Origin: Zestosphaera sp.
Lineage (GTDB): Archaea; Thermoproteota; Thermoprotei_A; Sulfolobales; NBVN01
NCBI GenBank assembly: GCA_038727705.1
Contig: JAVYVJ010000001.1
Span: 469,924-533,923 of the forward strand
DNA length: 64,000 bases
Direction: 5' to 3'
Numbering within the stretch: the first letter of the stretch is position 1; every line of letters begins with the position of its first letter. Below, one piece after another: positions 18,672-38,217 of this stretch. Position numbers and translations under genes: made by a program. The notes beneath the pieces were generated by a model that did not search any database, was not told the DNA's origin, and saw only the letters and a program-made list of their open reading frames with translations.

Positions 18672-20624
18672 ATGATTCAAGTGACTTTAGTTGATAAAGT
18701 AAGAATGAAGATTTTAGAGGAGATATACAAGAACATACCGCCTGAGGCAGGTCTCACTAAGATAGAGTTTGAGGGGCCCGAGATAGCCATATACCTTAAG
18801 GACGTGAAGTCCGTCCTAGAGAAGGAGGAGCTGATAAAGTCCATAGCTAAGGTTATAAAGAAGAGGGTTGTCGTCAGGGTCGATGAGTCATCACGCAAAG
18901 ACGTTGACGAGGTGCTGCAGATAGTACTCAATGAAGTGCCGCCCGACGCCGGCGTCACTAAAGATGACATCACCTTCGACGAGGTTCTGGGGGAGGTAGT
19001 CATTAAGTCCGTCAACCCTCTAATATTCTTTAAGGATAAACGTCAACTGTATAACAAGATCTTCATGGAGTCAGGGTGGAGGCCGCGCGTAGTGAGGAAG
19101 CCCCCCCTGCGGTCATCGATTCTGGAGTCAACTATAAAGTATTTGGTGACTCAGTCGGATCTAAGGAGGAGAATACTTAGAAGCATTGGCGATCGTATAC
19201 ATAGGGACACACTGTTTAAGGATCCTTACGTGAGGATGACGGCTCTAGGGGGGTTTCAGGAGGTCGGGCGGTCGTCAATACTTCTGGAGACGCAGGAGTC
19301 CAGAATCCTCTTGGACTTCGGGTATAACCCCTCAGCACCCGCGCTCAAGCAGTCAATGCCTAAGCTGGACATCCTTAATCTATCGCTAGAGGATATAGAT
19401 GCGGTCGTGGTTACGCATGCCCATCTCGATCATTGCGGGCTAGTCCCCCTCCTCTTTAAGTTCGGCTATGACGGGCCGGTCTACGCCACAGAGGCTACTA
19501 GGGATCTTATGGTGCTGCTCCAGCTTGACCTGCTGGACATCTCGAGGCGTGAGGGGAGACCGCTGCCTTTCGACCTTCAGGACGTTCATAAGGCTTTGCT
19601 CCATACGATAACCCTCAAATACGGTGAAGTCACCGATATAGCGCCTGACATCAGGCTCACGTTCTACAGAGCAGGCCACATACTGGGTTCGGCTATAGCG
19701 CACCTACATATAGGGATAGGTCTTCATAACGTGGTCTACACCAGCGACTTCAAGTACGGCAAGACTAGACTGCTTGATGAGGCCCATACGGAGTTCCCCC
19801 GAGTAGATACTCTAATAATGGAGTCCACGTACGGGAATGCCACCCAGCTCCCGAGGGAGGAGGCGGAAGCCAAATTCATAGATCTGATTAACCGGACCCT
19901 CACTAGGAAGGGTAAGGTTCTGATACCGACGCTCGCCGTAGGCAGAGCTCAGGAGGTTTTGGCCATCATTGCGGCCGCTATGGATGAAAACAGGATTCCG
20001 GAGGTGCCCGTCTACGTTGAAGGCATGATAAATGAGGTGACCGCCATCCACACCGCGTATCCGGACCTGCTTTCGAGCGAATTGCGTAGTCTGATAAACG
20101 ATGGCAGGAACCCGTTCCTCCATAAGTCGTTCAAAGTAGTTGATACGGGGAAAGCTAGGATGGAGATCATAGATTCGGACGAGCCCGCCGTGATACTCGC
20201 CACCTCAGGCATGCTCACCGGAGGCCCTGCCGTCGAGTACTTCAGAGCGATGGCCTCGGATCCTAAGAACTCCATAATATTCGTCAACTACCAGGTTGAG
20301 GGAACCTTAGGACGTAAGGTAAGAGACGGCGTGAAGAACATCAACCTAGTTGTGGAGGACAAGCTGGAGTCAGTGACCATCAACATGGAGGTCGACGCCG
20401 TAGAGGGTTTCTCGGGACACTCAGACCAGAATCAGCTACTAGCGTATCTGGAGAGTGTGTCACCGAAACCCAAGAAAGTGATACTGAACCACGGAGAGCC
20501 TGAAGCGACTAGCCGACTCTACACCCTGATAGAGGAGAGGAGGAGGAAGAATAAGACATTCCTACCACCAACTACCGAGCTCTACAAGCCTAGAGTGCTC
20601 GACTCACTAGCGCTGGTTGTGTGA
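18672..20624 (+). CDS. fttA: aCPSF1 (FttA), beta-CASP ribonuclease and termination factor
   Basis: Archaeal cleavage and polyadenylation specificity factor homologue of 650 residues. Two KH-like domains fill the first 150 residues (for example VDEVLQIVLNEVPPDAGVTK), followed by a metallo-beta-lactamase domain with the metal motif HAHLDH at about 248-253, the ESTYG block, and a beta-CASP insert with PTLAVGRAQE, then the final HSDQNQL and ILNHGE. Known aCPSF1 proteins cut 3' RNA ends after U-runs and release RNA polymerase; this protein has all required residues. Confidence 0.95.
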   Translation: MIQVTLVDKVRMKILEEIYKNIPPEAGLTKIEFEGPEIAIYLKDVKSVLEKEELIKSIAKVIKKRVVVRVDESSRKDVDEVLQIVLNEVPPDAGVTKDDITFDEVLGEVVIKSVNPLIFFKDKRQLYNKIFMESGWRPRVVRKPPLRSSILESTIKYLVTQSDLRRRILRSIGDRIHRDTLFKDPYVRMTALGGFQEVGRSSILLETQESRILLDFGYNPSAPALKQSMPKLDILNLSLEDIDAVVVTHAHLDHCGLVPLLFKFGYDGPVYATEATRDLMVLLQLDLLDISRREGRPLPFDLQDVHKALLHTITLKYGEVTDIAPDIRLTFYRAGHILGSAIAHLHIGIGLHNVVYTSDFKYGKTRLLDEAHTEFPRVDTLIMESTYGNATQLPREEAEAKFIDLINRTLTRKGKVLIPTLAVGRAQEVLAIIAAAMDENRIPEVPVYVEGMINEVTAIHTAYPDLLSSELRSLINDGRNPFLHKSFKVVDTGKARMEIIDSDEPAVILATSGMLTGGPAVEYFRAMASDPKNSIIFVNYQVEGTLGRKVRDGVKNINLVVEDKLESVTINMEVDAVEGFSGHSDQNQLLAYLESVSPKPKKVILNHGEPEATSRLYTLIEERRRKNKTFLPPTTELYKPRVLDSLALVV

Positions 20625-20743
20625 GTTAAACGACTTATGGATCAGTTATACAGGCTACATGCCCTGTGAGGGGACTTTTAGGAGAGCTTCATGAGCAACT
20701 CTCGGCAGTTGTAGTTAGTAGCTTCTAAGGAGTCTTAGAATAA

Positions 20744-21022
20744 GTGAATGAGCTATATGAGGCCGTGGGAAGCGCAATACTGTATCACAGCTACAGCTAC
20801 GCCTTAACTCACGACATTCAGTCCATGGACAAGGAGACTAAGGTGCTTAAAGAGGTTGACAAACTAGACGCGTTCGATGCCATCGGCTTCGTGGGAATCT
20901 TCCTCTCTACAGCCACGACCATGGAGCAGGTTTTAAGTGGGTCTGTGAGGTATTTCCGTGAGAAGATGCTGAGCCTACATATTCACATATACTGTAATCA
21001 CTTGCAAAGAGGAGGTGCTTAA
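20744..21022 (+). pseudogene. Remnant of an HD-domain phosphohydrolase
   Basis: The product looks like the second half of a small HD-superfamily hydrolase: AILYHSYSYAL and then KVLKEVDKLDAFDAIGFVGIF, equivalent to the usual LxDADKLDAxGAxGxARxF. The metal-binding HD part that should precede it is absent; upstream sequence is interrupted by stops. The tail after YFREKMLSL also departs from the family. I read it as a gene relic at the left border of the accessory segment, though the frame itself is still open. Confidence 0.5.
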
Positions 21023-21047
21023 GCTCATATATAGAGTAGAGACTCTA

Positions 21048-21166
21048 CTAAAATTTCTCGAAGAGGTGCTCGTCCATACCCCAGAGGAGTGAGGCATACA
21101 GGATTGTGTCCTCTATTGCGAGAGTGTTGATTAGACTATTGTCTATAAAACTCTTAACATAATCTT
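21048..21166 (-). pseudogene. C-terminal fragment of an unidentified gene
   Basis: On the minus strand an open stretch of about 39 codons ends in LLWGMDEHLFEKF and a TAG at 21048-21050. The upstream end stops at a TAA, and no start or promoter is present, since the region immediately upstream is the promoter of the HMG-CoA synthase gene. Amino-acid composition looks protein-like but I cannot name a family. It may be a relic or chance. Confidence 0.25.
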
Positions 21167-21174
21167 TTTAAACC
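21164..21174 (+). promoter_or_regulatory. TATA box of the HMG-CoA synthase/CoA-transferase cluster
   Basis: CTTTTTAAACC lies about 38 nt before ATG 21207 and about 23 nt before the alternative TTG at 21192, so the ATG is the better start. An odd palindrome AGTAGAG-A-CTCTACT at 21035-21049 is upstream and could be an operator. Confidence 0.5.
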
Positions 21175-21206
21175 CTATCTACCCCTAGTCTTTGGGGTAT
21201 ACCTTT

Positions 21207-22274
21207 ATGAACTTTAAGGGAGAGATCCCAGCCATCTATGGTTGGGGTTCATACATTCCTGTTTACAGGATTAAACTCGACGAAATAGCTAGGGTGTGGG
21301 GTGATGAACCTGCCAGGGTCAAGAGCGGGCTACAGGTCGAGGAAATCTCGGTGAGGAGTCGAGATGAGGATCAGGTAGTCATCGCGGTAAACGCTGCCTG
21401 GAATGCCTTAAAAAGGGCTCCTGAGGTTAGCCCTAAAGACATAGGCGCTGTGTACGTTGGTTCTGAGTCTAAGCCCTACGCTGTGAAGCCAACAGCAACC
21501 ATAGTTGCCGTTGCCGTAGGTGCACCGGTAACCATCAGAGCTGCTGATTACGAGTTCGCTTGTAAAGCCGGGACGGAGGCCGTCATATCCGTAATAGCTC
21601 AGGTAGCAAGCAGAATGATCAAGTACGGCTTGGCTATAGGCGCTGACACTTCTCAGTCATGGCCTGGTGATGTGTTAGAGTATACAGCAGGCGCGGGCGG
21701 ATCAGCGTACATAATTGGGCCTAAATCCAATACCAGCGTTGCTTACTTTGAGAGTCAATACTCCGTCGCCACAGATACTCCTGACTTCTGGAGAAGAGAT
21801 GAAATCAAATACCCTAGACACATGGGTAGGTTCACAGGAGAGCCAGCGTACTTCAAGCACATCACATTAGCCGCTAACGAGCTAATGAGCAGAGAGGGTC
21901 TTAAGCCAAGCGACTTCGATTATTTCGTGCCGCATCAACCAAATGGGACATTCCCTGTTAGAGTTGCTCTTAGGTTAGGCTTTAAGTTGGAGCAGGTTAA
22001 GCCGGGGCTCATATCACCATGGGTCGGGAACTTCTACTCCGGATCTTCATTAACTGGGTTATCGAGAGTGTTGGATAAGGCCAAGCCTGGTCAGAGGATA
22101 TTGCTGGTCTCATTCGGATCTGGGGCCGGTGCTGACGCTTTCAGCATAGTGTCACAGGAAGCTATAGAAGAGAAGAAGAAGCTGGCACCAACAGTTGATG
22201 AGCAAATCAGCAGAAAGAAATATGTTGATTATTCAACGTATCTAAGGTTCTGGGATAAGATATATGGGGTGTAA
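21207..22274 (+). CDS. Hydroxymethylglutaryl-CoA synthase family protein (copy 1)
   Basis: Archaeal-type HMG-CoA synthase, 355 residues from ATG 21207. The nucleophilic cysteine is in [11 protein letters not shown] (about residue 119) and the catalytic histidine in [26 protein letters not shown] is the CoA-binding family signature. It is followed within 2 nt by a thiolase and then a DUF35 protein; in archaea these three form one complex that channels acetoacetyl-CoA to HMG-CoA for the mevalonate pathway. Here the trio also heads a cluster with a CoA-transferase and a TRAP transporter, so a catabolic role is possible. A second trio is at 57.8 kb. Confidence 0.9.
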
Positions 22275-22276
22275 TC

Positions 22277-23446
22277 ATGAGAGGGGACGTGGCTGTAATA
22301 GGGGTAGGCATGACTAAGTTTGATGAGCATTGGAATAAGCAACTAAGGGATCTCTTTGTTGAGGCGGCTCTAGAGGCTCTTGATGACGCACGCGTGGATC
22401 TTAAGGACGTTAAAGCGATGTTCATTGGTAATATGGGCTCAGGCATGTGGGTTGAGCAGGAGCATTTAGGTCCTTTGTTAGCTGACTACCTAGGGATTCC
22501 TGGAGTGCCATCCTTAAAGGTTGAGTCTGCGTGTGCGTCTTCAGGAATGGCATTTAGATTAGGGTTTATGTCTGTTGCAGCAGGTCTTCATGACATAGTC
22601 CTCGTGGGGGGTGTTGAGAAGATGAGTGATGTGACAACTGGTGAGTCTACACATCACTTAGCGACAGCAGCTGATAGAGAGTGGGAGGCATTCTACGGAG
22701 TGACGTTCCCAGGCCTCTTCGCCTTGATAGCCAGGAGGCATATGAAGCAGTACGGGACTACTAGAGAGCAACTGGCTAAAGTGGCTGTCAAGAACCATAA
22801 ACACGGTTCCTATAATCCTAAGGCGCAGTATCAGAGAGCGATATCGATAGATGATGTCCTCAATTCACCTCTGGTAGCGGACCCGTTAAGGCTACTCGAC
22901 AGCTCACCGATCAGCGATGGTGCGGCGGCCGTTATCATAGCGAGATCCGACATAGCAAGAAGGTTCACGGACACGCCGGTCTACGTACTGGGTAGCGGCA
23001 CTGCAACTGACACGATAGCCCTCCACGACAGAGACGACATAACAATCCTAAGGTCTGTTGTGTTAGCAGCTAAAGAGGCCTACAGCATGGCTAAGGTGGA
23101 GCCTGAGGACGTGAACCTCGCTGAGGTGCATGACTGCTTCACAATAGCAGAGATCCTAGCCTACGAGGATCTGGGTTTTGTCAAAAAGGGTGAGGGTGGT
23201 AGGTTAATTGATGAGGGGATGACTGAATTAGGAGGTAAGATACCGGTGAACCCGAGCGGTGGCTTAAAGGCTAAAGGCCATCCAGTCGGTGCAACGGGGA
23301 TCGCTCAAGTGGTGGAAGTGACATTGCAACTCCGCAATGAGGCTGGTAAGAGGCAAGTGTCTAACGCCGAGATAGGCTTAACGCACAATATCGGAGGTTC
23401 AGGCGCCTCATGTGTTGTCCATATTTTAGGGAGGAGTAGGAGGTGA
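22277..23446 (+). CDS. Acetyl-CoA C-acetyltransferase, archaeal SCP2-thiolase type (copy 1)
   Basis: The 389-residue enzyme has all catalytic positions of archaeal acetoacetyl-CoA thiolase: nucleophile C86 in [10 protein letters not shown]285 in EVHDCF, H335 in GHPVGATG and the final HNIGGSGA. Other family blocks are [20 protein letters not shown] and [13 protein letters not shown]. It is located between HMG-CoA synthase and DUF35 genes, with a 2-nt gap upstream and overlapping downstream, as expected for subunits of one complex. Confidence 0.93.
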
Positions 23447-23451
23447 GACGT

Positions 23452-23871
23452 ATGAGTAACATGTCCGTGCCAAAGGCACCAAGGATATGGCAATTAGCTG
23501 AAAGGAGGTACAGATTAGTAGGTAGTAAGTGTTTAAAGTGTGGGAGGCTCTTCGTAGGATTAAGGAAGGTCTGCCCTCAATGCAAGAGTACGGAATTTGA
23601 GTACGTTGAGCTGAGTAGGAGAGGCAAGATATATTCATACACAGTCATTAGGGCCCCACCCATGGAGAGAGAGAAGTATGGCCCTTACATAATGGCTATA
23701 GTAGAGCTTGATGACGGCTGTAGACTAACTGCAGAGATCGTCGATTGCTCGTCGGAGGAGATCGACATAGGCACTGAGGTTGAAGCGACTTTCAGAAAAA
23801 TTGGCGAGGAGAGCGAATCAGGCATAATATACTACGCCTGTAAGTTTAGGCCGGTGGTAAAGGGGGTGTGA
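23452..23871 (+). CDS. DUF35 zinc-ribbon/OB-fold protein (copy 1)
   Basis: Bridging subunit of archaeal thiolase-HMG-CoA synthase complexes, in which the OB fold contributes to a shared CoA-binding site. It has the zinc ribbon CLKCGRLFVG plus CPQCKS (residues about 25-46) and an OB-fold half with GKIYSYTVIRAPPMER and YACKFRPV. ATG at 23452 is preferred over the GTG at 23443 that overlaps the thiolase stop. Length is normal (about 139 residues). Confidence 0.9.
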   Translation: MSNMSVPKAPRIWQLAERRYRLVGSKCLKCGRLFVGLRKVCPQCKSTEFEYVELSRRGKIYSYTVIRAPPMEREKYGPYIMAIVELDDGCRLTAEIVDCSSEEIDIGTEVEATFRKIGEESESGIIYYACKFRPVVKGV

Positions 23872-23877
23872 AGTGTT

Positions 23878-25077
23878 TTGAAGAAACCTTTAGAGGGTGT
23901 TAGGATTATCGACTTGTCAAGAGTTCTAGCAGGACCTTACTGTACTATGATCTTAGCTGATTTAGGTGCTGAGGTGATTAAGGTTGAGAGGCCAGGAACT
24001 GGGGATGACTCAAGACATTTCACACCATTCATAAATAATCAAAGTGCCTATTTCATTAATATAAACAGAGGTAAGAAGAGTGTTGTAATAGATCTTAAGA
24101 AACCTAAAGGTAGAGAAATATTCTTAAGATTGGTGGAGAAAGCTGATGTGCTTGTAGAGAACTTCGCTCCCGGAACCATGGAGAAGTTAGGGTTAGGTTA
24201 CGACGTGATTAACAAGGTCAATCCGAGAGTAATATACGCGTCTATATCAGGTTTCGGCCAGGAAGGTCCGTATAGAAATAAGACAGCTTACGACTTGATA
24301 GCGCAGGCTATGGGAGGCATAATGAGCATCACTGGGTGGCCTGAATCGCCACCGACCAGAGTGGGCACGGCCATAGGAGATATTCTAGGTGCTCTATACG
24401 CTACCATAGCTATCCTGGCCGCCTTAAAAGCTAGAGAGGTGACAGGGGTGGGAGAGAGGATAGATATAGCGATGGTTGACTGCGTTGTCCAGGCGTGTGA
24501 AGCCTACAACATGATGTGGTTGGTTGAAGGCAGAGTACCTACCAGAATAGGCAATAGGTATGAATTCATTTATCCGTACGATACCTTCAAAGCGAAGGAC
24601 GGCTGGGTTGCTATAGGGGTTGGGAATAACGAAATGTGGAGCAGATTCTGCAAGGCCATAGGAAGGGACGACCTAATAAACCACGAGGACTTCAACACAA
24701 ACATGAAGAGAGTTAAGAACCACGTTAAGGTGAAGGAGATAGTAGAAGAGTGGACATCAAAACTAACTACGAAGAAAATTGCTGAAATACTTGAGAGATA
24801 TGAGATACCAGTCACACCAGTATACACTATGAAAGACGTATGGGGGGACGAACATATAGTCACACATAGAAAGATGTTAGTTAAGATAAATCAGCCAGAG
24901 ATAGGTGAAATGCCGGTCGTTGGAACCCCTCTCAAGATGAAGAATCTAACCTCAGAGGTCGGAGGCCAGGCCCCGCTGTTAGGACAACATACTAAAGAAG
25001 TACTCACGACACTCTTAAACCTTAATGAAGATGAAATAAATAAGCTTGAGGAGGAGGAGGTTATATATTGTCGATAA
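23878..25077 (+). CDS. CaiB/BaiF family III CoA-transferase
   Basis: Family III CoA-transferase of 399 residues with the canonical start LEGVRIIDLSRVLAGPYCTM, the block GAEVIKVERPGTGDDSR, RGKKSVVIDLKKPKGREI and VLVENFAPGTMEKLGLGY. The catalytic aspartate is in TAYDLIAQAMGG (about residue 139). Such enzymes move CoA between carboxylic acids through a mixed anhydride. Its specific acid is unknown; the trio upstream and the TRAP transporter downstream suggest that an imported acid is activated here. Start is TTG at 23878. The base composition is visibly more A+T rich than in the core genes. Confidence 0.92.
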   Translation: MKKPLEGVRIIDLSRVLAGPYCTMILADLGAEVIKVERPGTGDDSRHFTPFINNQSAYFININRGKKSVVIDLKKPKGREIFLRLVEKADVLVENFAPGTMEKLGLGYDVINKVNPRVIYASISGFGQEGPYRNKTAYDLIAQAMGGIMSITGWPESPPTRVGTAIGDILGALYATIAILAALKAREVTGVGERIDIAMVDCVVQACEAYNMMWLVEGRVPTRIGNRYEFIYPYDTFKAKDGWVAIGVGNNEMWSRFCKAIGRDDLINHEDFNTNMKRVKNHVKVKEIVEEWTSKLTTKKIAEILERYEIPVTPVYTMKDVWGDEHIVTHRKMLVKINQPEIGEMPVVGTPLKMKNLTSEVGGQAPLLGQHTKEVLTTLLNLNEDEINKLEEEEVIYCR

Positions 25078-25121
25078 GATATATAAAGCTAAATGTAAGA
25101 TACTAAAGGGGTGTACTTGCT

Positions 25122-26324
25122 TTGAGTGCTAACCCCTTAAGTAAGTATACAACTGGATTGTTAGTGGTTTTAGTAGTTGTTGCGGGTGTTATGGGATATC
25201 TGGCTGGGTCTTCAGCCGCTCCAACAGCTACACTAACTGTAACGAAGTCTGAGACCCGTGTCGTGACGAACATCATAACGCAGACTCAAACACTCATCAT
25301 TACAGGACCGACCACCCCTATAACGACGCCTAAGCCAACAACGCCCACACCAACAACACCCACATTTACACCTCCTGCGCTTTCAAAACCAGTAACATTG
25401 AGGATAGCGACACATAGCATGGGCTCCTCATGGTATATGATGGGGTCAGCCTTCGCGGCGGTGATTAAGGAGTACCTACCTTCGGGTTCCGTCATCGACG
25501 TGATGACAGGTCCTGGTACTATCGGGAACATACCGCTCGTATCAAAAGGGGACGCTGAGCTAGCTATAACTATGGATAGCTACGTGTTCTTTGCAAGAGA
25601 AGGGTTGCCACCTTACGAGACGCCTATCACAAACATAGCCATGGTTGTAAATAGGTTAAGTCCTTACTTCCTGCTGGTGGCTGTTCCTAGGGATTGGGCT
25701 TCAGCGAACAACGTAAGGACCTTCGATGACATTGCTCAAATGATTAAGAACGGTAAGAAAGTCGTCATAGTGACTAGTTCGGTAGGTGGTCTGGACGAGT
25801 ACGCTACGAGGATCATGTTACAACTGTACGGACTGACTTACGATGACGTCAAGAGAGCTGGCGGCGATATAATCTTCGGCGCGACAGATGACTATAGGGT
25901 CGAGGTCTTCCGGCAGGGTCTAGCTCAGGTATTTAGTGATGTGTGCACGTATAATCATCCTACGTGGGAGTCGCTAACTGCCGGGACAGATATAATAGTC
26001 CTTCCGTTGAACGAAACTGTGAGGGAAGGATTTAAAAACTATGGTCTAACGCCCTATGTAGTTGAGAAAGGGACCTATAAGGGTGTGGATGCAGATATAA
26101 AGACCGTGGGTCTCTGGGCTTGCTTGGTAGCCAGCACGGAGGTGCCTAAGGAGGTCATCTATTATGTAACTAAGGCGTTAGTTGAAAACAAAGAGAAACT
26201 CACCGCTTTGTTCGCAGGTTTCAGTCGATTCGATGCAGAGCATGCATATGACTCGCCTGCACCCCTTCATGAAGGAGCGCAACTCTACTTTAGGTCTGTC
26301 GGCCTTTTAAAGGCAACCACCTAA
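25122..26324 (+). CDS. TAXI-family TRAP transporter solute-binding protein
   Basis: Extracytoplasmic binding protein of 400 residues. An N-terminal hydrophobic segment (about residues 11-28, TGLLVVLVVVAGVMGYLAG) anchors or exports it, and a Thr/Pro-rich linker (about residues 60-88) follows, as in archaeal cell-surface lipoprotein-like receptors. The folded domain starts at LRIATHSMGSSWYMMGSAFA and contains GPGTIGNIPLVSKGDAELAI, both diagnostic of TAXI proteins. Characterised members bind small carboxylates such as glutamate or 2-oxoglutarate. Start is TTG at 25122; the permease gene follows after 28 nt. Confidence 0.9.
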   Translation: MSANPLSKYTTGLLVVLVVVAGVMGYLAGSSAAPTATLTVTKSETRVVTNIITQTQTLIITGPTTPITTPKPTTPTPTTPTFTPPALSKPVTLRIATHSMGSSWYMMGSAFAAVIKEYLPSGSVIDVMTGPGTIGNIPLVSKGDAELAITMDSYVFFAREGLPPYETPITNIAMVVNRLSPYFLLVAVPRDWASANNVRTFDDIAQMIKNGKKVVIVTSSVGGLDEYATRIMLQLYGLTYDDVKRAGGDIIFGATDDYRVEVFRQGLAQVFSDVCTYNHPTWESLTAGTDIIVLPLNETVREGFKNYGLTPYVVEKGTYKGVDADIKTVGLWACLVASTEVPKEVIYYVTKALVENKEKLTALFAGFSRFDAEHAYDSPAPLHEGAQLYFRSVGLLKATT

Positions 26325-26352
26325 ATTTTCGTCCAAAAGAGGGTTTTTCAAT

Positions 26353-28251
26353 ATGAGTAATCACAAGCCCGGCGGGATCTTTAACTTAAACCAGATATTA
26401 CTGGGTCAGGACTTTAACCTAAGGCGAGCCTCATTATACGTTACGGGATTAGTATGGACTACATTTCAATTGTATGCTACATACGTCGGTTTCGAGCTCA
26501 CAAGACTTATGATAATCCACATAACGTTCGCTTTGATTTACACCTTTATCTACAAACATCTAAAAATACCTGTGGGTAGAGTAGTAGATGTAGTTTTGAT
26601 AGCCCTTGTGATTGTTACCGGTGCTTACTTCCTCCAAATAGCTGACTTGATAAATGCCAGGATTCCCTACATCACTCCATTGAGTAACCAGGACCTAGTA
26701 TTTGGGACTTTATTAATATTACTGGTTATCGAGGGCGTTAGGAGAGTGGCTGGGTTACCGTTAACTATATTCATATCCGTCATTGCTGTGTACGGTTTCT
26801 TAGGAAGATACATACCAGAGGTAGGACATAGGGTAAGTCCTCAGCTCGTTTTCGAGCAGATAGCTATCGGGACTGCAGGGATCTACGGTACACTACTCTT
26901 CATCTCAGCGACGTACGTCTTCTTGCTAGTAGTGTTTTCATCGCTCTTCAGCAGGACTGGGGTCGGGGATTTCTACATGAAGTTAGCCCTGGTGGGTGTA
27001 GGAAGAGCGAAAGGAGGTGGGGCTAAAGCGACGGTAGTTGCTAACGTCCTCTTCGGGACTATAACAGGTGCTTCGGTCACGGCGGTTCTAGCTACCGGGG
27101 TCTTCACAATTCCACTCATGATGCAACTAGGGTATAGAGCGAGCTTTGCCGGAGGTATAACAGCTCTCGCAGGGACCGGGGCGCAGATAATGCCTCCTAT
27201 AATGGGTACAGCGGCATTCTTAATCGCTCAGGCCTTAGGCGTTAGCTACTGGGATGTGTGTGTAGCCGCTATAATCCCAGCGTTACTGTACTTCACAGCC
27301 ATCTACATATACATAGATCTGATCGCTAAGAAGGAAGGACTCATGGGTGTTACCCAGAGATTAACTTGGAGAGAAACAGTCAAGGACGCCTACCTGCTAG
27401 TACCTCTCGCGGTTTTAGTTTACAGATTAGCGACAACACTCTCGGTGATAAGCGCCGTACTCGACTCCATAATCGCGTGCTTTATAATAGCAGTCATTAA
27501 GATAACTCTCGTAGATAGGAAGCCAAAGGATTTAATGAAGATCCTCAATGGACTGGCTGAAGCTCCTAAGGAGGCAATCACCGTGGCTAACGTTTTGGCG
27601 GGCGTAGGCGTGGTTGTCGGTATACTGTCGATAACGGGTTTAGGAAGCAAGTTAGTCATATTAATATCGAGCTTGTCGATGGGGTTTCTTTGGCTAACAG
27701 TAGCTCTTACCATGTTAGTCTGCTTATTGTTGGGGATGGGCATGCCGACGACGGCTGCTTATGTGCTAACGTCCTCCATAGCAGCTCCAATATTTATATT
27801 TGCCGGGTTTGACCGCATGGCAACTCATCTGTTCATATTCTTCTACGCCTGTTTATCAGCTATTACACCCCCAGTGGCGGTGTCGTCTTACGCGGGCGCC
27901 TCGCTCTCTAAAGCCTCAATAGGGGCAGTGAGTCTAGAGGCTCTTAAAGCCTCAGCACCTCTATACATAATCCCCTGGTACTTCCTGACATACAATGATA
28001 TATTACACCCTAACAGCATTTTCGGGTTAATGCACATAGCTCAAGCCCTAGTAGGGATTGTAACTATAAGCATTGGAACAGCTGGTTATCTACGACGTAA
28101 GCTAAGCCTAGTGGAGAGGGCAACGTTCTTAAGTGTTTCAATACTCATGCTAATACCAAATACTGTGCTCAATCTCATCGGCGTTCTGATATTTGTGTCT
28201 CTGCTAGTTAAAGAGTTCCTCCTAAAACGTGAATCACGTCGAATAACCTAG
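26353..28251 (+). CDS. TRAP transporter fused membrane protein (TAXI type)
   Basis: A 632-residue permease that fuses the small (DctQ-like) and large (DctM-like) membrane components, usual for TAXI systems. Many hydrophobic segments are seen, with the conserved loops GRAKGGGAKATVVANVLFG, GGITALAGTGAQIMPPIMG and the second-half repeat LLGMGMPTTAAYVLTSSIAAP. It would import the ligand with sodium or protons. It probably shares its message with the binding protein gene just upstream. Confidence 0.93.
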   Translation: MSNHKPGGIFNLNQILLGQDFNLRRASLYVTGLVWTTFQLYATYVGFELTRLMIIHITFALIYTFIYKHLKIPVGRVVDVVLIALVIVTGAYFLQIADLINARIPYITPLSNQDLVFGTLLILLVIEGVRRVAGLPLTIFISVIAVYGFLGRYIPEVGHRVSPQLVFEQIAIGTAGIYGTLLFISATYVFLLVVFSSLFSRTGVGDFYMKLALVGVGRAKGGGAKATVVANVLFGTITGASVTAVLATGVFTIPLMMQLGYRASFAGGITALAGTGAQIMPPIMGTAAFLIAQALGVSYWDVCVAAIIPALLYFTAIYIYIDLIAKKEGLMGVTQRLTWRETVKDAYLLVPLAVLVYRLATTLSVISAVLDSIIACFIIAVIKITLVDRKPKDLMKILNGLAEAPKEAITVANVLAGVGVVVGILSITGLGSKLVILISSLSMGFLWLTVALTMLVCLLLGMGMPTTAAYVLTSSIAAPIFIFAGFDRMATHLFIFFYACLSAITPPVAVSSYAGASLSKASIGAVSLEALKASAPLYIIPWYFLTYNDILHPNSIFGLMHIAQALVGIVTISIGTAGYLRRKLSLVERATFLSVSILMLIPNTVLNLIGVLIFVSLLVKEFLLKRESRRIT

Positions 28252-28363
28252 TCCTTCGTTTAAAGACCTCAAGATCTTAAAGAAGACTGTTTCCTCCTTA
28301 ACCCATTGACGTCATCAGTAGACTTAAATCATTGATCATACTAATAGTAATGGGGATACGTGG

Positions 28364-28999
28364 GTGCTCAACACTCAGTGTCTTGACGCAATATTCACGA
28401 GAACTAGTATTAGGAGGTTTAAACTCACTCCTATACCAGATGAAGTTATAATTAAGATCTTGGAGGCAGGCACTAGAGCCCCCACAGCTAGTGGTGGCGA
28501 GCAGTGGTTCTTCATGGTAATAGCTGATGAAGAGACCAGGAAGTCTGTGCATAGACTATTAAGGAGAGCTCACGAGATCTACGCTAGAGATTCCCTGTTA
28601 GAACCCTATTCAGAGGACTCTATAGTAAAGTGGATGAAGAGAATAGATGAAGGTATGTATTATGCACCACTCTATATAGCCGCCTTCCTAGATCTAAGGA
28701 AGAGAATACACAGGGATGAATATCTTCAATATGAGAGAGTGCTCGCGATACAGTCTCTCTCGGCAGCACTTCAGAATATGATTATATCGGCATGGCTCCT
28801 AGGGGTAGGTAGTGTGTGGCTTGGGGTACCCCTTCTACTTAAAGAAGAGTTCGACAGGCTACTTAACCCACCACAAGGGTGTGAACTTCAAGCTGTAATA
28901 GCGTTTGGATACCCGTCGGAGGAACCTAGGTTAAGGAAGAGGAAAAACATTAACGAAGTTGTAGTCTTTAAGCATGGACAGGAGCTTCATAGAGCTTAA
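28364..28999 (+). CDS. Nitroreductase family flavoprotein
   Basis: FMN-dependent oxidoreductase of 211 residues. The N-terminal IFTRTSIRRFKLTPIPDEVI and ILEAGTRAPTASGGEQWFFMV are the FMN phosphate-binding family signature, and AALQNMIISAWLLGVGSVWLG is the second conserved block. The natural substrate is unknown; it may reduce an enoyl or similar intermediate in the pathway of the cluster, which is speculation. Start is GTG at 28364, with TATA-like sequence GACTTAAATC about 40 nt upstream, so it has its own promoter. Confidence 0.88.
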   Translation: MLNTQCLDAIFTRTSIRRFKLTPIPDEVIIKILEAGTRAPTASGGEQWFFMVIADEETRKSVHRLLRRAHEIYARDSLLEPYSEDSIVKWMKRIDEGMYYAPLYIAAFLDLRKRIHRDEYLQYERVLAIQSLSAALQNMIISAWLLGVGSVWLGVPLLLKEEFDRLLNPPQGCELQAVIAFGYPSEEPRLRKRKNINEVVVFKHGQELHRA

Positions 29000-29149
29000 C
29001 ACTAGATAATGTCAGGTTCTCGGTTCCTACGCATTATTGAGATTCGTAAGAACATTACGTACATCATCATGTAGACTCATACGTCATTTAGCTCTCATCC
29101 ATGACGCATGGGAAACTGGTATCATGCTTAAACCTCTCTTCGCTACTAA

Positions 29150-29328
29150 CTTGCAAGTACTGACGTTGTCTTCATGTACGTTAGTCAGAGGATTGAAGAC
29201 CTATACTCAGGCAGGAGCTGGAGGGGAGGGACGCGGTGAGGGAGATCTACAAGCTGAGCGATGCTGAGGTGGACTTCCTCGTGAACACACCCGCAGGCGT
29301 GGGAATCCTCAAAGCAGGGAGGAACTAA
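29150..29328 (+). pseudogene. Relic of a VirB4/TraC-type conjugation ATPase (C-terminus)
   Basis: Two frames together read as the end of a VirB4-like ATPase: first DVVFMYVSQRIEDLYSGR (motif with TQR/SQR-x-x-D), then after a frameshift near 29210 GRDAVREIYKLSDAEVDFLV and NTPAGVGILKAGRN with a TAA at 29326-29328. The KLSDAE-x-x-FL and GVGILxAG pattern is typical of VirB4 C-termini from archaeal conjugative plasmids. There is no start and the main domains are missing, so this is a fragment. The assignment comes from pattern memory, not a search. Confidence 0.45.
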
Positions 29329-29422
29329 AGACATTCACCACACTACATCAATAACTTAATCAACTATTAAGCCGTGGGTGAGGATAAGTTTCCCAGAATG
29401 TAGTGTCTAGAAGGGGATTGAG

Positions 29423-29718
29423 TTGGGCTTTCTGGTCAAGCGTGTTAAGGGGAAGCTATACGTCTACGAGTACGTCAGACTGCCTGACGGCAGGAAGGTC
29501 GAGCGATACATCAGTTCTTTAGAAGAACTGGTTAGGAGTTTTCAGGCCTCACAGCTCGTCGATGACTCGACGCAGGGGAGTTATCGACGCCTCACACCAC
29601 GCATGCTTCGACGCATAGCCCAATACGTCGTCGATAACTTGATGGAGAGTCTAAGAGGACTGGTGGACCGGCCGGGATTTGAACCCGGGGCCTCTCGGAT
29701 GCCAACCGAGCGCTCTTC
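29423..29718 (+). pseudogene. IntN fragment of an SSV-type integrase, merged with tRNA-Ala
   Basis: The frame starts TTG at 29423 with VKRVKGKLYVYEYVRLPDGR and KVERYISSLEELVRSF, which matches the layout of SSV-type tyrosine recombinase N-termini (KGRYYVYK...ERYVGPL...). It then runs straight into the 3' half of the minus-strand tRNA-Ala, where it reads DRPGFEPGAS, the same peptide signature that attP encodes inside SSV integrases. In type I integration the gene is cut at attP, leaving IntN on one side of the provirus or plasmid and IntC on the other. No IntC or second att copy is visible in the window, so only the scar remains. Confidence 0.68.
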
Positions 29719-29737
29719 CAGGCTGAGCTACCGGCCC
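29661..29737 (-). tRNA. tRNA-Ala (anticodon GGC)
   Basis: On the minus strand the 77 nt fold into a standard cloverleaf: acceptor GGGCCGG/CCGGTCC, anticodon stem CTCGG/CCGAG with loop TTGGCAT, T stem CCGGG/CCCGG and an encoded CCA. The G3-T70 pair, the alanine identity element, is present. No intron. A TATA box (29757-29770) lies about 27 nt upstream of the 5' end. Its 3' half doubles as the attachment site of the integrase relic. Confidence 0.96.
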
Positions 29738-29756
29738 ACAATACATAGTTGTCCCC

Positions 29757-29770
29757 AATTTTTAAAACTT
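29757..29770 (-). promoter_or_regulatory. TATA box of tRNA-Ala
   Basis: On the minus strand AAGTTTTAAAAATT is centred about 27 nt before the tRNA 5' end, the standard archaeal distance. Confidence 0.6.
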
Positions 29771-29844
29771 TCGCTTACCCGTCACCCACTTATACGTTTC
29801 AGGTTCAGGGGTCGCATGTCTTTGAATCTTGATGGTGTGGATGT

Positions 29845-31431
29845 ATGACGTGGAGTGGCTCCATACCTCTAGGACTTGCCTTTAAACCTAGAAGGGAGTT
29901 AGGTCGGATTCTGAAGAAGGGACGTCCATCAGATTTAAAGGTGGGTGTTTTCCTGCCTATGCCGTACTCAGCCGCCGTTAACTCCGTCTTCATGCATTTA
30001 GCGTACTCCTACCTGAACAGTATTGAAGGCGTGCGTGCTTTTAGATACGTCTACGACGCTAAGGAGGACGTCGTTGAAGCTCTAGACCTCAACTTAAGCC
30101 CTAAGAAGCTAGATGTTTTGATGATATCGGCGTCATTTGAACTTGACTACCTTTACGTGGCGAGGGCCTTAGCAGGTTTGGGGATCCTCCCTGAGGGAGG
30201 TGAGGGGAGGCCCTTAATAATAGTGGGGGGTGTGGCGCCGACCGCCAATCCACTCCCGCTTGCCAGGATAGCGGACGCCGTTGTAGTGGGTGAGGCGGAA
30301 CCTGTGTTTGATAGGGTGATTGATTGCATGGGTTCCGCCGATCCTCTGAGGAGGTTGAGTGAGGAGGAACATATCGTGACGTTCCCTCCTGAGGGTGTCA
30401 AGCGTAGGGCCATAGTCCACAATCTGGACGACGCCATCACTCCTGAGAGGCAAGTTCACCCGTTAGACGAGGAGCCGACCTACGGCCACGGCATCAGGGT
30501 CGAGGTCTCAAGGGGTTGCAGGAGATTCTGTGCGTTCTGCCTGGAGGGGCATGCAACATTCCCACTTAGGTGCAGATCGCTAGACAGGTTGAAGGGCTTA
30601 ATCTCGAGAGGGCTGGAGACCTCGCCTAAGAGGAGGGTAGTGTTTTACTCGCTTTCCTTCTTCGACGTGCCGCACTCAGAGGAGTTGCTCAGGTGGCTGA
30701 TTTCTGAAGGTGTGGAATATAGCATCCCTTCCTTAAGACCTGATTACCTATCGGAAAGCCGCATAGAGTTGGTTAGATGCGGCGGGCAGAACACTTTAAC
30801 AGTGGCTCCTGAGACGCTGTTGCCCGACGTCTCATGCTCAATAGGTAAGTGCGTGAGTTCTGACCACCTTGAGTCCATATTGGATCACGCCGCCGCCAAG
30901 GGCTTTAGACACGTTAAGCTGTACCTAATCACGGGTTTTCCGTCGGAGGACGCCGAGCTAAGTGTTAGAGCAGTTGGAGACCTTATCAAGGGGTTCCTTA
31001 AGGGGAGGAGGGTTCCACCTAAATTCATTAGGTTAAGCATCAACCCGCTGATACCGAAGCCGTGGACGCCCTTCCAATACCTGCCTGCCTACCACGTGAA
31101 GCAACGGGAGAAGAACCTTGAGGTGTTTAGGAGGTATTTAAGCGGCAGGTTTGTCGAGATCGAGACCTACAGTGTGGAGTGGTCATTCGTTCAGGCCGTC
31201 ATCGCGCTCGGCGATACCGCCGTCTCGGATCTCATAGTGGATTTAGGCATGAGGGGGGTGTCTTTAGGTTCCTTCAGGAGAGTAATCCGTGAATCAGGGT
31301 TAAGCAGACTGGCGTACATCATGAAAGGCTGGAGCGAACCTCCTTGGATGAAATATCTTGACTTAGGCATCGATAGAAGGTACTTAGAAACTAGGTTCAG
31401 GATCTTAAACCCCAATCCCAGTCATGAATAG
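29845..31431 (+). CDS. Radical SAM protein with B12-binding-like N-terminal domain
   Basis: A 528-residue protein. The N-terminal 190 residues have a Rossmann pattern like the B12-binding fold of radical SAM methyltransferases (LDVLMISASFELDY, IIVGGVAPTANPLPLARIAD, VVGEAEPVF), followed by the iron-sulphur motif C225-x3-C229-x2-C232 (CRRFCAFC) and a TIM-barrel with GFRHVKLYLITGFPSED. Substrate is unknown. An 11-codon frame (ATG at 29816, stop TGA at 29848) overlaps the ATG of this gene, so the two are coupled, and the TATA box CTTATAC near 29789 would put the 5' end almost at that upstream ATG. Confidence 0.85.
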   Translation: MTWSGSIPLGLAFKPRRELGRILKKGRPSDLKVGVFLPMPYSAAVNSVFMHLAYSYLNSIEGVRAFRYVYDAKEDVVEALDLNLSPKKLDVLMISASFELDYLYVARALAGLGILPEGGEGRPLIIVGGVAPTANPLPLARIADAVVVGEAEPVFDRVIDCMGSADPLRRLSEEEHIVTFPPEGVKRRAIVHNLDDAITPERQVHPLDEEPTYGHGIRVEVSRGCRRFCAFCLEGHATFPLRCRSLDRLKGLISRGLETSPKRRVVFYSLSFFDVPHSEELLRWLISEGVEYSIPSLRPDYLSESRIELVRCGGQNTLTVAPETLLPDVSCSIGKCVSSDHLESILDHAAAKGFRHVKLYLITGFPSEDAELSVRAVGDLIKGFLKGRRVPPKFIRLSINPLIPKPWTPFQYLPAYHVKQREKNLEVFRRYLSGRFVEIETYSVEWSFVQAVIALGDTAVSDLIVDLGMRGVSLGSFRRVIRESGLSRLAYIMKGWSEPPWMKYLDLGIDRRYLETRFRILNPNPSHE

Positions 31432-38131: not shown

Positions 38132-38216
38132 GCGGGGGTGCCCGAGCCAGGTCAAAGGGGTCAGGCTTAGGCCCTGATGGCGCAGGCCTGCGTGGGTTCG
38201 AATCCCACCCCCCGCA
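38132..38216 (+). tRNA. tRNA-Leu (anticodon UAG)
   Basis: A class II tRNA of 85 nt with acceptor GCGGGGG/CCCCCGC, anticodon stem TCAGG/CCTGA with loop CTTAGGC (anticodon TAG), a long variable arm and T arm GTGGG-TTCGAAT-CCCAC. The CCA is not encoded. No intron. Its 3' end is the left boundary of the integrated island, whose right boundary repeats the last nine bases. Confidence 0.95.
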
Positions 38217-38217
38217 C
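38209..38217 (+). repeat. Left direct repeat (attL) at the tRNA-Leu 3' end
   Basis: CCCCCGCAC at the tRNA 3' end is repeated at 45173-45181, with a looser match AATCC before it on both sides. The two copies bracket the island of decayed genes. Confidence 0.55.

Follow-up and report, generated by a model that had tools for sequence, protein, structure and literature searches.

In the integrases of the fuselloviruses SSV2, SSV4, and SSV7 and of the plasmid pXZ1 (N-terminal domain PF07935, catalytic domain PF16795), attP lies inside the gene, where the 3' half of a tRNA is read in frame, and the gene is split on integration. The suicidal integrases of the pT26-2 and pTN3 families of Thermococcales are also partitioned on integration, and related ones use many tRNAs; the integrase gene of the pNOB8 type (type II) stays intact after integration (PMC8371274). 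In Sulfolobus islandicus, solo intN fragments have been described at tRNA genes, tRNA-Ala(GGC) included, and were read as signs of ancestral integration (PMC3718332).

The locus analyzed here, within a stretch of 64,000 nt (hereafter the window), is an integration scar of a type well known from archaea, in this case in an uncultured lineage. It has the same N-terminal domain as the fusellovirus and pXZ1 integrases, with attP inside the gene and the tRNA 3' half in frame, but in its family the N-domain and attP are set further apart, by about 30 extra residues that are probably helical, and only Int(N) survives in the window. Likened by description, the S. islandicus fragments are relics of the same kind at the same tRNA isotype in another lineage, whereas the integrases of the Thermococcales lineage resemble the family in their partition and their varied tRNAs. 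The pNOB8-type integrases have similar tRNA targets in Sulfolobales, but the window holds an N-terminal part only: no intact integrase gene was found beside the tRNA, the frame having only about 79 codons before the tRNA, and no catalytic domain was detected in the genome with PF16795. The record of suicidal SSV-type integrases now includes an uncultured Sulfolobales family and an Int(N) subtype whose linker ahead of attP is longer. The additions are modest, namely this linker and near-identical Int(N)s that end in different tRNAs.

Integrase N-Terminus Reading into tRNA-Ala(GGC)

Region 29423-29737 of the window is very probably an Int(N)/tRNA junction that arose by SSV-type ("type I" or "suicidal") integration into the 3' half of tRNA-Ala(GGC) (table 1). 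An open frame on the forward strand (29423-29848) starts with TTG, contains no stop, and crosses the tRNA gene from its 3' end. This opposite-strand tRNA, called by ARAGORN, is intact, and the frame enters its 3' half, which corresponds to an attP located inside the gene. The att core would lie in this 3' half, and attR would be needed to fix its limits.

Table 1. Features at and around tRNA-Ala(GGC) in the window.
Feature	Coordinates	Strand	Remarks
FttA/aCPSF1 (beta-CASP)	18672..20624	+	Left anchor; adjoins tRNA-Ala(GGC) in relatives
Accessory segment	20678..29053	+	HMGS-like, thiolase, ChsH2-like, CoA-transferase, TAXI receptor, TRAP permease, nitroreductase; absent here in relatives
ABC-transporter ATPase remnant	29065..29148	-	Resembles the interior of a gene located after the cluster in G003; 80% over 86 bp
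VirB4/HerA-like ATPase gene, broken 3' part	29203..29325	+	88% identity (41 residues) with the intact gene at tRNA-Ala(TGC)
Int(N)	29423..29659	+	SSV-type integrase codons 1-79, as far as the tRNA; frame stays open to 29848
tRNA-Ala(GGC)	29661..29737	-	Intact attachment target; att core would be in the 3' half
PGFEPGAS codons	29672..29695	+	Residues 84-91; T-arm of the tRNA in frame; alone not diagnostic
B12-binding radical SAM gene	29845..31431	+	Right anchor; 5' side of tRNA-Ala(GGC)

Taken as a single sequence, the frame matched PF07935, the N-terminal family of the SSV1 integrase (SSV1 ORF D-335), with an E-value of 0.0013 and 19.5 bits, which is under the cut-off of 22. PHROG 23443 was matched at 4.5e-6 and an integrase PHROG at 0.0058. 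When the protein was compared with 50,697 phage records by tblastn, Sulfolobus viruses accounted for 35 of the 36 records matched; among those listed they are spindle-shaped and related viruses, and the match falls within the integrase gene wherever this is annotated. These matches are individually weak (E-values from 0.03 to >1), and those in two pieces score partly from tRNA-encoded residues. A scan of IMG/VR with the window Int(N) yielded two 14-residue tRNA-encoded matches and nothing else, and no significant match in the PDB was obtained with the Int(N) profile.

Related frames with 28-47% identity to the window Int(N) were detected in relatives. Multiple alignment of 13 such family sequences, from which the tRNA-encoded residues had been taken out, revealed the pattern VKxVKGKxYVYExxR...YIGPLEE. 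Each of the 13 members matches PF07935, and tRNA-free profile-profile comparison of the family with the integrase N-termini of SSV2, SSV4, SSV7, and pXZ1 reached 97.9% (E-value = 4.4e-13). Substitutions between close Int(N) pairs are mainly silent (dS 0.29 vs. dN 0.03; dS 0.21-0.35 vs. dN 0.04-0.06), implying protein-level evolution of the frames, either at present or before their integration. At the level of sequence, these comparisons confirm the frame before the tRNA as an SSV-type Int(N), with modest support from the single sequence and strong support from the family.

The original prediction, that a frame resembling the N-terminus of SSV-type integrases enters the tRNA 3' half and there encodes PGFEPGAS, was therefore borne out, and the similarity to integrase N-termini, whose lack was to count against it, does exist. 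Its use of PGFEPGAS as a signature of attP has to be abandoned. Many tRNA genes (tRNA-Ala(CGC), Lys, Arg, and others) give the same or PGFEPG-like peptides when read in this register, and at tRNA-Ala(CGC) no Int(N) frame was seen. The peptide is a mere reading of the T-arm and no evidence by itself; it is the upstream N-domain that is diagnostic in the window.

The Int(N) Family in Relatives

The tRNA-free Int(N) model was searched over 60 genomes and 31 loci were inspected, 13 of which had served to build the model. Twenty-seven of these loci (14 of the 18 non-model ones) face the 3' end of an opposite-strand tRNA at a distance of 0-219 nt, and the tRNAs concerned are Ala, Val, Gly, His, Leu, Ser, Asn, Tyr, Ile, Thr, and Arg.

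In three relatives that share this Int(N) family the partitioned structure is complete: Int(C) comes first, then a repeat (46-63 bp) of the tRNA 3' portion, the body of the element, and finally the tRNA-fused Int(N). L210 (about 7.7 kb) has a tRNA-Gly repeat of 63 bp (97%) and an Int(C) of 299 aa; L211 (about 10 kb) has a tRNA-Leu repeat of 57 bp (98%) and an Int(C); and L212 (about 3 kb) has a tRNA-Gly repeat of 46 bp (100%) and a frameshifted Int(C). When Int(N) and Int(C) of L210 and L211 were computationally joined, the products aligned with SSV integrases over the full length. The three loci show the suicidal mechanism (PMC8371274) directly within the family of the window, so that the proposed splitting into IntN and IntC, together with the att direct repeats, can be seen in relatives.

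Some Int(N)s are nearly identical but end in different tRNAs. The Int(N) units of L218 (genome G013, Ala) and L226 (G020, Val) are 86% identical in DNA, and three units of genome G005 (L217, L233, and L225, at Ala GGC, Ala TGC, and His) are 83-90% identical; in all of these genomes the DNA homology ends within about 10-70 bp upstream of Int(N). These are natural cases of target switching among Ala, Val, and His tRNAs, and provide natural material on the open question of how suicidal integrases change from one target to another. At L273 (G004:C66:1125-1283), an Int(N)-like frame enters tRNA-Val(TAC) from the 5' side, opposite to all others. At L224 (G002:C20) and L281 (G049:C91), SSV-type integrase frames enclose a tRNA-like attP and seem not to have been split; these are possibly free elements of the Int(N) family.

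Comparison of the Integration Site

FttA adjoins tRNA-Ala(GGC), or is one gene off, in eight relatives, four of the same genus (G001-G004) and four of the same family (G011, G012, G019, and G020). In G001, G002, and G004 a single gene of about 170 aa separates the two, whereas in the window 9.0 kb of additional DNA follows the end of FttA before the tRNA is reached. The radical SAM gene on the other side of the tRNA has the opposite orientation in G001, G002, and G004 and is missing from this place in G003.

No Int(N) was found at the tRNA-Ala(GGC) site of G001, G003, and G004, that is, in three of the four same-genus genomes. There is a trace in G002, short broken relics are present in G012 and G019, and full Int(N)s in G013 and G005. 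Thus, Int(N) is not a conserved neighbor of tRNA-Ala(GGC), and the pattern is one of repeated arrival and decay. The finding that would have spoken against the original prediction, a frame conserved beside this tRNA, is contradicted by these absences, by the broken relics, and by the near-identical Int(N)s at different tRNAs. Solo Int(N)s that are still open after loss of the element (the window, three in G005, and others) might be expressed as small multimerising or DNA-binding proteins which hinder integrases of their own family on arrival or excision. We regard such a role as very doubtful, since intact Int(N)s are not kept at a given tRNA among sister genomes.

In the proposed history, attP would have been inside the integrase gene of the element, and recombination would have split this gene, leaving the body of the element on the left and Int(N) joined to a rebuilt, intact tRNA-Ala(GGC). 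The attR repeat and Int(C), whose place had been further to the left, would since have been lost, and the mobile element at this tRNA would have mostly decayed. Searches of the genome with PF16795 and PF00589 revealed no Int(C) at the locus or elsewhere. The single strong PF00589 match of the genome is on contig C2, far from the window tRNA, and a weak match (C2:55274) was rejected as an integrase, being a coiled-coil-like frame. A second tRNA-Ala 3' half, sought genome-wide and over about 80 kb leftward, was not found besides other tRNA genes near the site. At the sensitivity used, neither of the two items which the original prediction proposed to look for was found in the genome. An Int(C) and attR bounding a complete SSV-type integrated element were not seen at the locus, and the combination of direct repeat and Int(N)/Int(C) split, present in L210, L211, and L212, is lacking there and in the whole genome. 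"Scar" is thus the right term, and with Int(C) and attR gone the remnant cannot excise by itself.

The Segment to the Left

The VirB4 fragment or the 9-kb segment may once have been part of the element. A broader possibility, which we consider somewhat less probable than its opposite, is that the entire stretch 20625-29660 is an integrated element that carried metabolic cargo and was afterwards shortened by deletions. This stretch fills precisely the interval from FttA to the tRNA on the side of the element, and its last part, ahead of Int(N), consists of gene pieces scarred by deletions. Its HMGS-like gene, a second paralog present only in the window genome and G003 among ten genomes, is acquired; the CoA-transferase is likewise confined to these two genomes among 60 at the threshold used. 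On the other hand, positions 21131-29053 and 20678-20964 are 85% and 76% identical, respectively, to contig C5 of the sister genome G003, where the cluster lies inverted and elsewhere in the genome, with no tRNA or integrase within the stretch read. Neither attR nor Int(C) is present at the left end of the segment, and the cluster contains no element gene, the VirB4 fragment being the only virus- or plasmid-typical gene in the left segment. The location of the element to the left, as originally predicted, agrees with the extra DNA found exactly there, but its equation with the accessory segment is not supported as stated, given the VirB4 fragment as the piece next to Int(N), the G003 copy, and the missing Int(C) and attR. 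That the accessory segment was part of the integrated element is possible but unproven.

Integration versus Copying

Int(N) scars were found at about five tRNA genes of the window genome. Apart from that of the window, they include tRNA-Ala(TGC), where Int(N) is broken by deletions and a stop; tRNA-Val(GAC), with an E-value of 6e-14 against the family model, of which it is itself a member; tRNA-Ser(GCT), at the start of contig C3; a degenerate scar at tRNA-Val(TAC); and a doubtful trace at tRNA-Ile(GAT).

At tRNA-Ala(TGC), an intact VirB4-like gene is located just before the broken Int(N). DNA homology between this locus and the window runs from the VirB4 fragment via the spacer into Int(N), so that VirB4 tail, spacer, Int(N), and tRNA are common to both loci, with different deletions, and the similarity fades directly after the tRNA. 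Such an arrangement could also have been produced by copying, in which recombination between the 96%-identical tRNA-Ala(TGC) and tRNA-Ala(GGC) genes moved Int(N) and the VirB4 3' end and no integration took place at GGC. A unit of about 330-357 bp in G005, consisting of Int(N) and tRNA only and common to three tRNA loci, points in the same direction. We consider copying unlikely: the TGC copy, with its deletions and stop, cannot in its current form have given rise to the open copy in the window; the identity between the two loci is uneven (about 79-88%), unlike that of one recent copy; and Int(N) units are also found at tRNA-His and tRNA-Val, where tRNA-guided copying is less likely. We therefore infer that the site was occupied by integration and not by copying of Int(N) and its flank from another tRNA-Ala locus. 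Hardly credible is a trivial similarity, with only the T-arm peptide common to integrases and the upstream frame due to chance, because, although many tRNA genes give such peptides and the two-piece tblastn scores are partly tRNA-encoded, the tRNA-free family comparisons remain strong, the profile-profile result contradicts triviality, and close Int(N) pairs show the silent-site bias.

The VirB4/VirB11-Like Block

The VirB4 gene belongs to a block of the secretion, DNA-transfer type, which includes a VirB11-like (T2SSE) ATPase. The block adjoins tRNA-Ala(TGC) in the window genome (L005, C2:516500-536400) and tRNA-Leu(TAA) in G003 (L251, C46). Fragments of the VirB4 3' end were detected at two further tRNA loci of the window genome (L303, C2 near 307.4 kb; window 29203-29347), one such fragment lying near tRNA-Val(TAC); an identical internal deletion is found in two of them. 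A PDB search with a small membrane protein of the block gave nothing significant.

The block was at first favored as an integrated element, as it abuts Int(N) at tRNA-Ala(TGC) and lies beside tRNA-Leu(TAA) in G003. This view was weakened by its distribution: the block is single-copy in every same-genus genome, its identity drops with kinship, and no tRNA lies within 1.5 kb of it in G001, G002, and G004. Judged from this analysis, the block is as likely to be a resident system for DNA import, of the Ced/Ted kind (PMC9905601).

A further tRNA gene of the window, tRNA-Leu(TAG) (38132-38217), on whose 3' side no Int(N) frame was found, marks the onset of a G+C-poorer region at 38-56 kb (about 0.43-0.47 vs. 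0.51-0.54).
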